Source of the DNA: Planctomycetaceae bacterium
GTDB taxonomy: Bacteria; Planctomycetota; Planctomycetia; Planctomycetales; Planctomycetaceae
Length of the DNA: 64,000 nucleotides
Direction: 5' to 3'
Assembly (NCBI GenBank): GCA_002726205.1
Contig: PBSL01000043.1
Span: forward strand, 1 to 64,000
Both the position numbers and the translations under genes were made by a program. Shown piece after piece: positions 7,897 to 18,377 of the stretch. Each line of letters opens with the position of its first letter. Position 1 is the stretch's first letter. The notes below the pieces were generated by a model, which was not told where the DNA came from, searched no databases, and worked only from the letters and a program-made list of their open reading frames with translations.

Positions 7897-9263
7897 GTCC
7901 TTCTCCTCGCACGGCCCGACAGATCGCCTTTCGGGTGATCGAGCAATGGCGGGAGACGGGTCGATTCGCCGCCCCGCTGCTGGACTCCTGCTTCGAACAA
8001 CAACCGGATCTCGCCGCGGCCGACCGGCGGCTGGCCAGCGAGCTGACCTACGGCGTGATCCGCCGGCGAGCAACCCTGGGCGCCGTGATCCGACCTCAAC
8101 TGAAAAGACCCCGGCAGCAGGTCGAACCCCAACTGTGGACGCTGCTGGAACTGGGAGCTTACCAGTTGCTGTTTCTCTCGGCCGAGTCCCAGCACGCGGC
8201 GATTCACGAGACCGTCGAGTTGACTCGCTGGCTGAACAGGCCCCGCTGGACCGGATTCGCCAACGGCGTGCTGCGTTCCCTGCAACGGGATCTGACGGGA
8301 GAAACCGCGCCGGCTCCAGCGGCCGACGCGGTACCGCTGGCCGATGGATTTCTCAGGCTCGCTCGACCACTTCTTCCAGATCCCTCCGAGAACCCCTCGG
8401 AATACGTGGCCCAGGCCGGAAGCCTGCCGGGCTGGCTGGTCCGGCTCTGGTCACGACGAATTGGGTTCGAGGAACTGCTGCGGATGGCCGCCTGGTTCAA
8501 CTCGCCCGCGGCGACCTGGTTGCGGATCAACCCGTTGCGGGCAACCGCCGACCAGGTGACCGACGGGCTGGCCGCTTCGGGGGTCGAATCGACGATCGAG
8601 GCCGCCGGCTGCCAGGTGCGGTTGGCCGGAACAGCCCACGTGCCCTCGCTGCCCGGATTCATCGAGGGCTGGTTCACTGTCCAGGATCCCTCGGCGATGG
8701 CAGCAGCGCGGCTGCTGGATCCCCGACCGGGACAGAGCATCCTGGACCTGTGCGCCGCTCCGGGCACCAAGTCGACTCACCTGGCCGAACTGATGAACAA
8801 CGAGGGTTCGATCGCCGCCGCCGATTCACATCCCGGACGGATCGAAAGGATCGACGAGAGTGCCCGGCGACTGGGCCTGGCGATCATCGATCCGGTTCTG
8901 ATCGATTCAACCGGCAGCGATCTTCCGGCCGGTCCCTTCGACGGGGCCCTGGTCGACGCGCCCTGCTCCAACACCGGGGTGCTGGGCAAGCGACCCGAGG
9001 CGCGTTGGCGGATCGAGCAGGATGAACCCCGCAGACTGGCCGACCTGCAGTTGCGATTGCTGACGCAGGCCGCCGACCGTCTGAAACCCTCGGGCCGGCT
9101 GGTCTACTCGACCTGCAGCATCGAGCCGATCGAAAACGGAGAACTGATCGCCAGGTTCCTGGTCCAGCGACCTCGATTCACCGTCTGCGAGATCGTCGAC
9201 CACGTCCCCGGCCAACCCGGTGACGGCGGTTTCCAGGCCCTGCTGACCCGTCAGGATCAATGA
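7893..9263 (+). CDS. rsmB: 16S rRNA m5C967 methyltransferase RsmB
   Basis: A 456-residue RNA cytosine-C5 methyltransferase. The first 140 residues form a NusB-like RNA-binding domain (ARQIAFRVIEQW, ELTYGVIRRR). A Rossmann methyltransferase domain follows with the SAM motif LDLCAAPGTKS. Two catalytic cysteine motifs are visible: DAPCSNTG (proton-donor Cys region) and STCSIEPIENG (the other cysteine). This arrangement is that of RsmB/Fmu. The ATG lies within the aroA stop (ATGA), so translation is probably coupled. An in-frame ATG 15 bp upstream inside aroA is less likely. The nucleotide target is assigned by family resemblance only. Confidence 0.94.
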   Translation: MSPSPRTARQIAFRVIEQWRETGRFAAPLLDSCFEQQPDLAAADRRLASELTYGVIRRRATLGAVIRPQLKRPRQQVEPQLWTLLELGAYQLLFLSAESQHAAIHETVELTRWLNRPRWTGFANGVLRSLQRDLTGETAPAPAADAVPLADGFLRLARPLLPDPSENPSEYVAQAGSLPGWLVRLWSRRIGFEELLRMAAWFNSPAATWLRINPLRATADQVTDGLAASGVESTIEAAGCQVRLAGTAHVPSLPGFIEGWFTVQDPSAMAAARLLDPRPGQSILDLCAAPGTKSTHLAELMNNEGSIAAADSHPGRIERIDESARRLGLAIIDPVLIDSTGSDLPAGPFDGALVDAPCSNTGVLGKRPEARWRIEQDEPRRLADLQLRLLTQAADRLKPSGRLVYSTCSIEPIENGELIARFLVQRPRFTVCEIVDHVPGQPGDGGFQALLTRQDQ

Positions 9264-9307
9264 TCGTCGAGACCGTCCGGACCACGGTCCGGGAACTCGT
9301 TGATGGC

Positions 9308-9337
9308 TTGTCGCAGCGTCCACACGGCCGGTACACT
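9308..9337 (+). promoter_or_regulatory. Candidate sigma70-like promoter for the LRR gene
   Basis: TTGTCG and TACACT separated by 18 bp, about 50 bp before the LRR protein start. It lies partly beyond the rsmB stop. Matches are moderate, so this is a suggestion. Confidence 0.3.
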
Positions 9338-9385
9338 GAAGATCTCCCCGAGATGTCTCTCCCCAGCTCTCCAAGGAAACTCACC

Positions 9386-10318
9386 ATGCGCCGCCTCACC
9401 TGCCTGATCATCGTCGCCGCGATGCTGCTGGTTCTCGATGGCAACACCGCCACCGCCGCCGACAAGGTCTTTCCGGACGCGAAGCTCGAAGCCGTGATCA
9501 AGGCAATCCTGAAGAAGAAACAGGCCAAGACCGACAAGATCAACGAAGCGGACCTGAAGAACATCTTCTTCCTGGAGGCCCCCGGCAAGGGAATCACCAG
9601 CCTGTCCGGCCTGGAGAAGTGTCCCAACCTGGCACTGATCAACCTCTCGAAGAACACCATCGTCGACCTGAAACCGTTGGCCGGGCTGAAAAATGTCCAG
9701 TCGCTGGATCTCTCGGGCAACAAGATCGCCGATGTTGCTTCGCTGGCAAAACTCGAAAAGTTGCAGTACCTGCAGCTGGAAGGGAACCAGATCGCCAAAC
9801 TCGACGGGCTGGCAGGACTCAAGAAACTCTCGGCACTCTATCTCAGCAAGAACAAGGTCGCCTCGGTGGCCCCGCTCAAGGGCCTGGGCAAGCTCTCCAG
9901 CCTCTACCTCGACGGCAACCAGGTCGCCGACCTGTCTCCCCTGAAGGACCTCAAGTGGGTCGCCAACCTCGCCCTGCGAAACAACCAGGTCAAGGATCTC
10001 GGCCCGCTGGCGGGCATGACCGAACTGCGGTACACGTTCCTGGAAGGCAACAAGATCACCGACCTGGGTCCGCTGGTGACGATGGCTCAAAAAGACGCCA
10101 AGGGCGGTCGCCGATTCGCTCCCTACTGGCACCTCTACGTGGCCGGCAACCCGCTCTCCGGGACCGCCAAGACCGGCCAGGTCGCCGCCCTGAAAAAAGT
10201 GGGCGTGCGGGTTGATCCCAAGCCCAAAGCCAAGCCCAAAGCCAAGCCCAAAGCCAAGGCCAAAGCCAAGGCCAAAGCCAAGGCCAAAGCCAAGCCCAAG
10301 GCGGCCAAGAAGAAGTAG
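9386..10318 (+). CDS. Exported leucine-rich repeat protein with Lys/Ala tail
   Basis: A 310-residue protein. A signal peptide runs to about residue 23 (MRRLTCLIIVAAMLLVLDG then NTATAA). About eight leucine-rich repeats of the internalin-like LxxLxxLxxLxLxxNxI type follow (residues about 70-240). The C-terminal 30 residues are Lys/Pro/Ala-rich in a KPKA/KAKA repeat. The ATG is preceded by an AAGGA site. LRR arrays of this kind usually mediate protein binding; the partner is unknown. The basic tail could bind acidic polymers or peptidoglycan if it is really outside the cytoplasm. Antisense open frames here are artefacts of the repetitive composition. Confidence 0.88.
   Translation: MRRLTCLIIVAAMLLVLDGNTATAADKVFPDAKLEAVIKAILKKKQAKTDKINEADLKNIFFLEAPGKGITSLSGLEKCPNLALINLSKNTIVDLKPLAGLKNVQSLDLSGNKIADVASLAKLEKLQYLQLEGNQIAKLDGLAGLKKLSALYLSKNKVASVAPLKGLGKLSSLYLDGNQVADLSPLKDLKWVANLALRNNQVKDLGPLAGMTELRYTFLEGNKITDLGPLVTMAQKDAKGGRRFAPYWHLYVAGNPLSGTAKTGQVAALKKVGVRVDPKPKAKPKAKPKAKAKAKAKAKAKAKPKAAKKK
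10220..10303 (+). repeat. 12-bp in-frame tandem repeat in the LRR gene tail
   Basis: Seven units of 12 bp: three aagcccaaagcc, three aaggccaaagcc and one degenerate unit. They encode K-P/A-K-A repeats. The transition between the two unit types suggests stepwise expansion of each variant. Confidence 0.88.
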
Positions 10319-14685: not shown

Positions 14686-14786
14686 CGTGATCGTCTCCTG
14701 GAGAATTCCTCGGTGCATCAAGCAACAAAGCATACGGACTGGAATCGGTGCTGCCAAATCCGCGGGCCCGGTTGACGACTCACCGC

Positions 14787-14814
14787 TTGCACCAGCGGCA
14801 ACGGCTCATAGAAT
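14787..14814 (+). promoter_or_regulatory. Candidate sigma70-like promoter for floA
   Basis: TTGCAC, a 16-bp spacer, then TAGAAT. This puts the transcription start near 14821, about 28 bp before the floA ATG. It lies in the short divergent region with the RidA-family gene. Confidence 0.45.
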
Positions 14815-14848
14815 GGCAGTATCCCAGGTTTTCTTGTGAGTTCCTCCA

Positions 14849-15808
14849 ATGCTATTCGCTGCTGTCCCCGAAACCACGGACATCGTGATCTATGTCCTGA
14901 TTGGTTTTGCGGCGTTGTTGGGTCTGATCTTCTTCGGGATCTTCGTGCGGTACATTCCACTGTGGCTCTCGTCGGTCACGACCAAGGCCGGGATCGGTCC
15001 GTTGAAGCTGGTGATGATGTCACTGCGGAAGATCAGCCCGCAGGTGATTGTCCGCGCGAGGATCATGGCGGTCCAGGCCGGACTGACCGACGTGACGACG
15101 AACAACCTGGAAGCGCACTACCTGGCCGGCGGCAACGTGCTGCGGGTCGTGCAGTCCCTGATCGCCGCGACGCGAGCCCGGTTGGGCCTGAACTGGGACA
15201 CCGCCGCGGTCATCGATCTTGCCGGTCGCGATGTACTCGACGCGGTCAGGACCAGCGTCGATCCGAAGGTGATCGACTGTCCCGATCCATCACGACACGG
15301 ACGAGTGACGCTCGACGGCGTTGCCAAGAACGGCATCCAGCTCAAGGCCCGCGCCCGCGTGACGGTCCGCACGAATCTCTCGCAACTCGTCGGTGGAGCG
15401 ACCGAGGAAACCGTGATTGCCCGGGTGGGTGAAGGCATCGTCAGTGCAATCGGTTCCTCGGACTCGCACGAGCAGGTTCTCGAACAACCGATGCTGATCG
15501 CCCGCGCCGTTCTCGACAAGGGACTCGATTCACAGACCGCCTTCGAAATCGTCTCGATCGACATCGCCGACATCGACGTGGGTGAAAACGTCGGGGCCCG
15601 TCTCCAGGCTGACCAGGCCGAAGCCGACATGCGGGTCGCACGGGCCAAGGCCGAAGAACGGCGGGCACAGGCCGTGGCAGTCGAGCAGGAGATGAAGGCC
15701 AAGACAATCGAAAACCGCGCGGAAGTGGTGCTCGCGGAGGTCGAGGTGCCACGGGCGTTGGCCGGCGCGTTTAAACAAGGAAATCTCCGCGCCGAAGATT
15801 CGGCGTAA
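14849..15808 (+). CDS. floA: Flotillin-like protein FloA
   Basis: A 319-residue membrane-associated scaffold of the FloA (formerly YqfA/UPF0365) family. These organise functional membrane microdomains in bacteria. A hydrophobic hairpin or single membrane segment spans about residues 11-35. An SPFH-like domain follows ([11 protein letters not shown]..., [42 protein letters not shown]). The C-terminus has an Ala/Glu/Arg-rich coiled coil (about 225-300). The length is close to the Bacillus protein (about 330). No NfeD-like partner is adjacent, which is often the neighbour in other phyla. Confidence 0.95.
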
Positions 15809-15944
15809 CCGGCATCATCCGAAGACCCCCGGCAGCCCCCAAGCTGACGGGTCAAGGCGGTCGACAACAGTGAAGCAGCACCACTTGGTAGTCTTCGCCC
15901 ATTCGCGTGGGCGGTGTTTCAGCGAGACAGACAGGCGGCCCGGC

Positions 15945-16151
15945 ATGAGCAAGAACATAAACGTCGACCTGACCTCCGAACAACGTGAACTGCTGCTGCG
16001 CGGCCTGAATTTCCTCCGCAGCTCGGTCAAACTGAATATTGGCAGGGCACGCCCACCCGAAAGCGAACGCCACGCACAACTGCAAGCCATCGAATCGCTG
16101 AGCCAGCAACTCAGAGAAGGCGTCACAAGCCAGGCTTCGACCATCTCCTAG
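15945..16151 (+). CDS. Small hypothetical protein
   Basis: A 68-residue predicted cytosolic protein. I chose the ATG at 15945 ([13 protein letters not shown]) over the longer open frame from 15870 because the first 25 residues of the longer form look like non-coding translation. The sequence is two amphipathic helices with many Glu/Gln/Arg/Leu residues and a [14 protein letters not shown] segment. It has no cysteines and no membrane segment. It lies between floA and the OleA-like gene on the same strand. I do not recognise a family. The antisense open frame over the same region has a cysteine/tryptophan-rich, implausible composition. Confidence 0.6.
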
Positions 16152-16209
16152 CCTGCCTCACCCGTCCGCAGTTCCAGCGGACCTCCCGACTCCAACACCC
16201 TCGCCCGCC

Positions 16210-17256
16210 ATGCGGTTTCAGCACGTCTGCGTCGAGACCCTGTGCTACCGGCTGCCCGACGAGGTTGTGACGTCCGCAGCGCTCGAGCAGCGATTGGCCC
16301 CGGTCTATGAACGACTTGGCCTGCCCGCTGGCCGCCTCGAGTTGATGACCGGCATCCGCGAGCGACGGTTCTTTCCACCCGGCACCCGGCCTGGCCAGAT
16401 CAGTGCACTGACGGCCCGAGACGCTGTCCAGGCCAGCGGACTCGACCCGGCCCACTTCGGCCTGCTGGTCCATGGGTCGGTTTGCCGCGATCAGTTGGAA
16501 CCGGCCACCGCCAGCAGCGTCCATCACGCAACCGGCCTGCCGGCAGAGACACTGGTCCTGGACGTCAGCAACGCCTGCCTGGGACTGCTCAACGGCTGCC
16601 TGCTACTGGCGAACATGATCGAACTCGGACAGGTGTCGGCCGGGGTGATCGTGGGAACCGAAATCGGCCGGGGATTGGTCGAGGGAACGATCGAAACGCT
16701 TCTGGCCGACGGCTCGTTGACACGGCAGACGATCAAGCCCGCCTTTGCCTCCCTGACAATCGGCTCGGGGTCGGCAGCCATCGTTCTCTGCGACCGCCGG
16801 TTGTCCCGCACGGGTCACCGCTTGTTGGGCGGCAGCGTGCGGTCGGACACGGCGGCCTACCAGTTGTGTGCCGGGGGAATCGCTGTCGAAGACCACGGGG
16901 ACGACCGGCCGCGGATGACTACCGATTCCGAAGCGTTGTTGCACGCCGGCGTGGAACTGGCCGCGGCCACCTGGGAGCAGACCCGAAACGTGCTGGGCTG
17001 GGACAACGGTTCAGTCGACAAGAGCTTCACGCACCAGGTGGGCCGTGCCCATCGCAACCTGCTTTACGAACGACTCGGAATCGATCCAGGAAAGGACTTT
17101 GCGACGATCGAGTTCCTGGGCAATACCGGCGCCACGGCCCTGCCGATCGCCGCGGCCCTGGGTGCCGAACAAGGACATCTCGAGGCCGGTGACAAGGTCG
17201 CCTGGTTGGGGATCGGCAGCGGGCTCTCGTCGGTGATGCTCGGCATTGAATGGTAA
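16210..17256 (+). CDS. OleA-like thiolase (3-oxoacyl-ACP synthase III family)
   Basis: A 348-residue thiolase-fold condensing enzyme. FabH relatives extend fatty acids, whereas OleA joins two acyl-CoAs head to head to make long-chain beta-keto acids for olefins. Catalytic Cys123 (SNACLG), His275 (THQVG) and Asn305 (LGNTGA) are present. The segment [13 protein letters not shown] carries Glu97, 26 residues before the Cys. From memory this equals the Glu117-Cys143 spacing of Xanthomonas OleA, and FabH lacks this Glu. LGIGSGL near the C-terminus also fits OleA. No oleB, oleC or oleD is in this window. A FabH-type role remains possible. It ends 32 bp from the convergent LDH2 gene. Confidence 0.85.
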
Positions 17257-17288
17257 ACGCCAGGTCACCGTGGCGGTCTTCCCGGGAT

Positions 17289-18377
17289 TCACACCCCGGA
17301 TGACCGGGCATTTCCGCCGGTTGCCGATTCAGGAGGTTTGATTCCCAGCGAGTCAGCGGCCTCGCACAGAGAGGACCAGGTTCCGGCGTCGAGCGGGACA
17401 CCCTGTTCGAGCCGTTCGGCCATCGTGGCCGCGCTGCGATCCCCGGCCAACCGAATCGACTCGACATCGTCCCGCCGTTTCACCCCGCGAACAAACGCGA
17501 TCAACCGGTCGGCCTCGGCCTCGAAGTGCTCCTGGCCGGAAAAACGCTCGGGATCCCAGATGATCAACAGCACGTTGTTCGTCCCCGGCGCCCCGCTGGG
17601 GGCCGGGGGGCAATTGCCCCCGGACAGTCCTCCCACGAGGATATCCAGCAGCATCGCCAGTCCAAACCCCTTGTAACCTCCTGCCGGCAGGATCGTCCCC
17701 CGCGGATCGCTGAAACGGACGGCGGGATCAGTCGTTGGTCGTCCCTCGGCATCCAGCAACCACCCCTCCGGGCAGGACTCGCCGGACGTGTGCCGCACCA
17801 GGATCTTGCCGTTGGCGACGACACTGGTCGAGATATCCAGCACGAGTGGGTCGCCATCGGTCGGGACCCCGATCGCGATCGGATTGGTGCTGACGGTCGG
17901 CTCGACGCCACCCGGCGGTGCCACGCACTTGAGCACGCCATTGTCGTTGACCGTGACCAGGCCGGCACGTCCGGTCATCGCCACCGCCTCGGCCCATTCG
18001 CCCAGTCGGCCAACATGTCCACAACGCGAAAGCGTCCCACAGGCAACACCCAGGGCATCAACCTTCTCGACCAGGCGATCGATCAACCGGGTCATCTGCA
18101 CCATGCCAAAGCCAAAACCGGCATCGGCACAAAGCAGCGCCGCTGTTTCCGAGGTCACTTTCAACTCGACCCCGGCAAGCAATTCGCCCTTCTCGAGTTG
18201 AGGCAGGTAGCGGGGAATCCGCACGACCCCGTGTGAGTCGTGGCCACGGAGGTTGGATCCAACCAGGCTCGTCGCGACGATGTCGGCTTCCTCGACCGGC
18301 ACACCGGCAGCCTGGAAGATCGACGATCCAAACCGGATGAGTTGATCCGCGGGGATCTGCAGCGGTTCGATGGTCAT
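17289..18377 (-). CDS. LDH2-family malate/lactate/ureidoglycolate dehydrogenase
   Basis: A 362-residue NAD(P)-dependent 2-hydroxy-acid dehydrogenase of the LDH2/MDH2 fold, unrelated to classic Rossmann LDH. Family landmarks are visible: GSNLRGHDSHGVVRIPRY with the substrate-site Arg/His, CGHVGRLGEWAE, TVNDNG, PIAIGVPT and GGYKGFGLAMLLDIL. Cytosolic, with no signal. Its ATG overlaps the upstream hydrolase stop (ATGA), so it is translationally coupled to a secreted hydrolase. Possible substrates include malate, lactate, sulfolactate and ureidoglycolate; nothing here decides between them. Confidence 0.92.
   Translation of the reverse strand: MTIEPLQIPADQLIRFGSSIFQAAGVPVEEADIVATSLVGSNLRGHDSHGVVRIPRYLPQLEKGELLAGVELKVTSETAALLCADAGFGFGMVQMTRLIDRLVEKVDALGVACGTLSRCGHVGRLGEWAEAVAMTGRAGLVTVNDNGVLKCVAPPGGVEPTVSTNPIAIGVPTDGDPLVLDISTSVVANGKILVRHTSGESCPEGWLLDAEGRPTTDPAVRFSDPRGTILPAGGYKGFGLAMLLDILVGGLSGGNCPPAPSGAPGTNNVLLIIWDPERFSGQEHFEAEADRLIAFVRGVKRRDDVESIRLAGDRSAATMAERLEQGVPLDAGTWSSLCEAADSLGIKPPESATGGNARSSGV

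Follow-up and report, generated by a model that had tools for sequence, protein, structure and literature searches.

Gene content of the locus

The window, by which we mean the whole 64-kb stretch of planctomycete DNA analyzed here, carries a gene for an OleA-like condensing enzyme that is preceded by a gene for a flotillin-like protein and by a small open reading frame (ORF) lying between the two (Table 1). All three run in one direction over window positions 14849-17256. The small ORF gave tblastn matches in 13 of 25 floA-oleA gaps, and its longer, 93 amino acid frame had no Pfam match. A floA gene precedes oleA in the same orientation in 10 of the 11 same-family relatives having the PDS kind of gene set described below (all but G152) and in 17 of 80 named loci, these being the best 80 of 570 relatives. 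One guess would be that flotillin domains serve in placing the hydrocarbon discussed below. The genes downstream of oleA (Ldh_2 and S9/esterase) run in the opposite direction, and no match to them adjoined oleA at the same-family loci compared. A promoter and terminator scan of positions 14700-17400 returned no more terminator-like sites than were found in shuffled sequences, and one promoter-like site, which lies on the other strand. Elsewhere in the window, positions 9260-10318 appear by eye to encode a leucine-rich repeat-like protein whose long tail is rich in lysine, proline and alanine.

Table 1. Features of the oleA locus and of the ketosynthase and desaturase-like cluster in the same genome
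Feature	Location	Strand	Description
floA, flotillin-like	window 14849..15808	+	PF12127, 430 bits; conserved upstream neighbor of oleA; part of the locus, pathway membership putative
small ORF between floA and oleA	window 15945..16151	+	68 aa; conserved in relatives; possibly co-transcribed
oleA	window 16210..17256	+	348 aa, ATG start; Glu97 (general base), Cys123 (nucleophile), His275, Asn305
KS, ACP, PDS2, PDS1, FabZ cluster	contig C8, L146 5386-10210		type II system with two phytoene-desaturase-like flavoproteins

Identity of the OleA protein

The protein matched the NCBIfam OleA model NF006720 (also PRK09258) from end to end with 412.4 bits against a curated cut-off of 285, while its score to the FabH model TIGR00747 was 64.5 bits, below the cut-off of 292.1; these scores place the OleA assignment above chance. 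In a sequence search of the PDB, Xanthomonas OleA chains were found at E values of 1e-53 to 1e-51 and the best FabH chain at 1.4e-13. An AlphaFold model built from 35 aligned proteins (pLDDT 93.8) was used for a Foldseek search, and the first 28 matches, ahead of any other protein, were all Xanthomonas chains, 27 of which are titled OleA while the remaining one, 3fk5, was titled FabH by its depositors. The match to Xanthomonas campestris OleA (PDB 3row, 5vxh, 6b2r and others) extends over the full length with approximately 34% identity and a TM-score of 0.93, and the Glu, Cys, His and Asn residues are common to both.

The earlier note on this DNA had described the product as an OleA-like thiolase, relying on a glutamate 26 residues before the catalytic cysteine, as in OleA and not in FabH, and on a spacing of 30 residues between His275 and Asn305. 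The description was borne out by the searches above, by the aligned residues and by the tree given below. Glu97, which is followed by Pro98, falls in the same column as the glutamate of 3fk5, where the spacing to the cysteine is likewise 26 (97/123) and which corresponds to Glu117 in the X. campestris numbering; the residue there is Cys in the FabH of this genome (spacing 24), Phe in that of E. coli (spacing 25) and Leu in a DarB-like synthase that this genome also encodes. Each of Glu97, Cys123, His275 and Asn305 was identical in 144 of 144 aligned relatives, in the OleA columns. The figure of 30 for the His-Asn spacing is itself correct, but both FabH proteins tested also have 30, and we dropped it as an OleA marker. 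Thus the glutamate separates the protein from FabH and the His-Asn spacing does not. The DarB/StlD-like ketosynthase mentioned here (L040 3827-5776, minus strand, contig C42) occupies a 649 amino acid frame, scored 402 bits to PRK06816 against a cut-off of 450, and is the third PF08541 match of the genome; it is perhaps a dialkylresorcinol-type enzyme with an extra C-terminal part.

An OleA tree was produced from 52 of the 87 OleA-containing genomes of the phylum (the window's own included), 10 named loci, Xanthomonas OleA and two FabH proteins; the other phylum sequences were outside the set retrieved, near-duplicates of family f18, partial (G005) or split between frames (G171). At the locus of the last of these (L265) the OleA match is split across two frames and adjoins oleBCD and PfaA, while in another genome (G003, L264) two OleA-like frames lie side by side, a stop breaking the second of them. 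The two FabH sequences split off with an SH-aLRT value of 100, and the placement inside FabH that the earlier note had named as evidence against OleA was not seen. That the protein is a divergent FabH, starting fatty acid synthesis from acetyl-CoA and malonyl-ACP, is suggested by the common fold and Cys-His-Asn triad and by the name that NCBIfam gives to the NF006720 family, 3-oxoacyl-ACP synthase III. We regard this as extremely improbable and rejected it on the TIGR00747 score and the tree, as Glu97 is present, both the tree and Foldseek put the protein with OleA, and a separate FabH is found on contig C12 (120.8 bits, PF08541). By sequence, tree and fold, the protein is nearer to OleA than to FabH. 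Hydrolysis of p-nitrophenyl esters has been reported for OleA and, in the cited passages, not for FabH (PMC7064751).

Partner genes of the probable olefin pathway

Of the profiles searched against the 64-kb window, only OleA and FloA were matched; those for OleB, OleC and OleD had no match, in agreement with the earlier note. This absence holds for the window only, since the search for oleBCD across the genome that the note had recommended located all three on other contigs. OleB gave a single strong match on contig C64 (352 bits, the next best being 86) and retains the HDWGG motif. OleC was found on contig C1 (637.8 bits; cut-off 478) as the sole match in the genome over that cut-off, and has the TSGSTG motif; the Xanthomonas- and Shewanella-type OleC models matched this protein below their curated cut-offs (549 of 900 and 480 of 850). 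An OleD-like reductase with a YxxxK motif overlaps the end of oleC by 4 bases, and its two best NCBIfam models are both OleD models, which it matches below their cut-offs (351 and 320 bits, the cut-off being 580 for each). The ole genes of this genome are therefore not clustered, with oleA on contig C44, oleB on C64, and oleC and oleD on C1. Because relatives assembled as one contig are also dispersed, this is not an effect of the assembly; in G048, for example, oleA lies at 0.03 Mb, oleB at 4.36 Mb and oleC with oleD at 4.83 Mb. These results support the scattered olefin pathway that the earlier note had raised.

The note had also considered another ketone or a beta-keto acid as the end product, which the presence of all four ole genes makes less likely. 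A related possibility is that OleA, OleC and OleD end at a beta-lactone or ketone without forming an olefin, OleB being unrelated. Those three enzymes are common to beta-lactone pathways according to the cited passages of PMC7064751, and oleB does stand apart on its own contig. However, a clear single OleB was found in 15 of the 16 genomes searched, the exception being a genome without OleA and OleC over the cut-off, and many relatives have OleB and OleA side by side, so that we consider this outcome improbable.

In two relatives of the same class (G121 and G205) oleD and oleC adjoin the ketosynthase and desaturase-like cluster described in the next section, and in G121 oleA adjoins it too. 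The family thus seems to show an ole cluster that has come apart, although the direction of this change is our inference. In another one-contig genome (G024; L041, L150, L151, L152) KS, PDS2 and PDS1 are themselves scattered, at 6.29, 5.89 and 4.88 Mb, besides oleA, oleB and oleC.

A ketosynthase and desaturase-like cluster on contig C8

The gene neighborhoods of oleA in other members of the phylum were of two kinds. In the first, a PfaA-like polyketide synthase lies directly upstream of oleABCD; the second contains a row of genes for KS, ACP, PDS2, PDS1, FabG, FabZ and FabI, where PDS1 and PDS2 are our labels for two phytoene-desaturase-like flavoproteins. The window's genome is of the second kind, with its cluster on contig C8 (Table 1), and contained no match to the PfaA-type model TIGR02813 at an E value of 1e-100. 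The C8 ketosynthase scored 690 bits (the next best being 238) and retains the ACAAG cysteine and the HATAT and GHAMGA histidines; PDS1 scored 742 bits, and the ACP has a DSM motif. Profile searches of the PDB matched PDS1 to distant carotenoid desaturases only (best 4dgk, E value 5e-14) and the ketosynthase to ordinary FabF. In this genome neither the C8 cluster nor any of oleB, oleC and oleD is near oleA; OleA is physically linked to such a cluster in Desulfogranum japonicum, where the gene order is KS-ACP-PDS2-PDS1-FabG-FabZ-FabI-OleA-OleB-OleC, and also at five further loci (L060, L050, L058, L269 and L271).

Clusters of the C8 type resemble those that have been considered in connection with ladderanes and with the polyunsaturated hydrocarbons of Desulfotalea. 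Likened by gene kind and name, the FASII clusters of Kuenenia stuttgartiensis and Desulfotalea psychrophila have in common with ours a FabF-type KS, an ACP, FabZ and two phytoene-desaturase-like proteins (PMC2649909, cited passages). D. psychrophila is described there as having C31:8 and C31:9 hydrocarbons, no Pfa, and a FASII cluster with phytoene-dehydrogenase-like genes that is syntenic with that of Kuenenia, and such hydrocarbons are said to be found in members of the Planctomycetes; in contrast to the clusters reported here, in which OleA is a partner, that paper does not mention OleA. The Kuenenia proteins related by name to PDS1 and PDS2 showed no phytoene desaturation, as stated in an excerpt of PMC4790861. 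We found no link between OleA and the phytoene-desaturase cluster in the open-licence literature searched, and a 2010 survey of OleA, which is outside that scope, may contain it.

Co-occurrence of OleA with PDS1 or PfaA

We scored 246 genomes of Planctomycetota for OleA over its cut-off, for PDS1, and for PfaA at an E value of 1e-100 or better, and found OleA in 87, PDS1 in 51 and PfaA in 46. All 51 genomes with PDS1 also had OleA. Of the 36 OleA genomes that lacked PDS1, 35 had PfaA; the exception (G003) has a divergent OleA and neither partner. One or the other partner was therefore present in 86 of the 87 OleA genomes. Three genomes had both, two with weak PfaA matches (G121, 370 bits; G205, 343 bits) and one with 647 bits (G196). 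Eight genomes had a PfaA match but no OleA over the cut-off (G049, G065, G079, G106, G122, G123, G153 and G203), and the idea that PfaA is a partner of OleA alone was rejected on that account. The sole same-family genome without PDS1 (G216) has PfaA with oleABCD, and a further genome without PDS1 (G167) is also without OleA over the cut-off. The association of OleA with PDS1 had a Fisher p value of 1.7e-29 over genomes and of 1e-5 by family (9 of 9 PDS1 families being among the 27 OleA families of 86, as tallied by hand), both statistics ignoring shared ancestry.

A similar pattern was seen in the order of Desulfogranum, where the presence or absence of the two genes agreed in 138 of 146 genomes: 97 had both OleA and PDS1, 41 had neither, 4 had only PDS1 and 4 had only OleA. 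In 40 of the 94 two-gene genomes for which contig distances were obtained (of 97), OleA and PDS1 lay 10 kb or less apart on one contig. Among the 80 named loci, 50 were checked for PDS1, which was present in the genomes of 46, including Nitrospinota, Desulfobulbaceae, Chloroflexota and Lentisphaerota, and missing from 4.

The OleA tree also sorts by partner. Twenty-nine sequences, which either were of the Pfa kind or had no visible partner in their vicinity, formed one group with an SH-aLRT value of 100; for 7 of the 8 tree sequences with no nearby partner, PfaA was matched at another place in the genome, and for G003 it was not matched at all. The window's OleA lies outside this group, among the PDS kind, in a nine-member family clade (SH-aLRT 100). 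It is distant from Xanthomonas OleA, which is on a separate, long branch that falls among the PDS kind with unsure placement.

An alternative account would be that the same scattered ole pathway is fed saturated or monounsaturated chains by the housekeeping FAS II, giving olefins like those of Xanthomonas or Micrococcus, while the C8 cluster makes something else. All of the ole genes are in the genome, the oleA gene and the C8 cluster are not physically linked there, and OleA of the Xanthomonas-type producers uses chains of the core FAS II, according to the cited passages of PMC6463001. We nevertheless find this account unlikely, given that two phyla show the co-occurrence of OleA and PDS1, that the two genes adjoin each other in several genomes, and that nearly every OleA genome of the phylum sample has PDS1 or PfaA.

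Proposed pathway

We propose that this oleA probably belongs to a complete but dispersed oleABCD pathway whose chains are made polyunsaturated by the C8 type II system and which yields a polyunsaturated hydrocarbon, C31:9 for example. In homologues, OleA joins acyl thioesters, OleD reduces, OleC makes a beta-lactone and OleB decarboxylates (cited passages of PMC7158056 and PMC6463001), and this established chemistry is extended to the window's organism by sequence. OleA would join two fatty acyl thioesters head to head, the first chain being carried by Cys123 and Glu97 acting as general base for the second. OleD would then reduce the beta-keto acid, OleC would close the beta-lactone and OleB would remove CO2 to leave a long internal olefin. 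The KS, ACP, two phytoene-desaturase-like flavoproteins and FabZ of the C8 system would supply polyunsaturated acyl-ACP to OleA, a task that falls to the Pfa synthase in other bacteria. This acyl source, and with it the nature of the product, we infer from the associations above, and it is an addition to the pathway suggested in the earlier note.

The nearest parallel is the Pfa-linked OleABCD of Shewanella, for which the model in the cited part of PMC6463001 has the 31:9 product formed from 16:4 chains that OleA takes off the ACP domains of Pfa; the common element, presumed in the present case, is a dedicated source of polyunsaturated chains for OleA. Where the Shewanella system has Pfa, this genome has the KS-ACP-PDS2-PDS1-FabZ cluster. 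That Pfa-like clusters could be the source of olefins in planctomycetes was a suggestion of Shulse and Allen (PMC3098273, cited passages). Compared with X. campestris OleA, the window's gene is set apart from oleBCD in its genome and its acyl chains are likely to be different. The OleA is thus ordinary as an enzyme and unusual in its setting.

More broadly, we put forward, as a proposition that could equally well prove right or wrong, that the KS-ACP-PDS2-PDS1-FabZ cluster is an oxygen-independent type II counterpart of Pfa which in several phyla serves mainly to produce the polyunsaturated acyl-ACP that OleA uses, that Pfa and PDS have substituted for one another as OleA's partner, and that the ladderane clusters of anammox bacteria may be a branch that lost OleA and gained cyclization. 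If true, this would join the C31:9-type hydrocarbons of Desulfotalea and planctomycetes, made without Pfa, to the role of phytoene-desaturase-like enzymes in ladderane-type clusters. Should the PDS enzymes indeed provide OleA with polyunsaturated acyl-ACP, culturable planctomycetes and sulfate reducers would offer a way to test the desaturation half of the proposed ladderane route with a simple hydrocarbon read-out. As a separate observation, two contigs titled Candidatus Kuenenia stuttgartiensis (L165 and L168) encode OleA proteins 66 to 69% identical to that of the window, and these may be mislabeled planctomycete bins.
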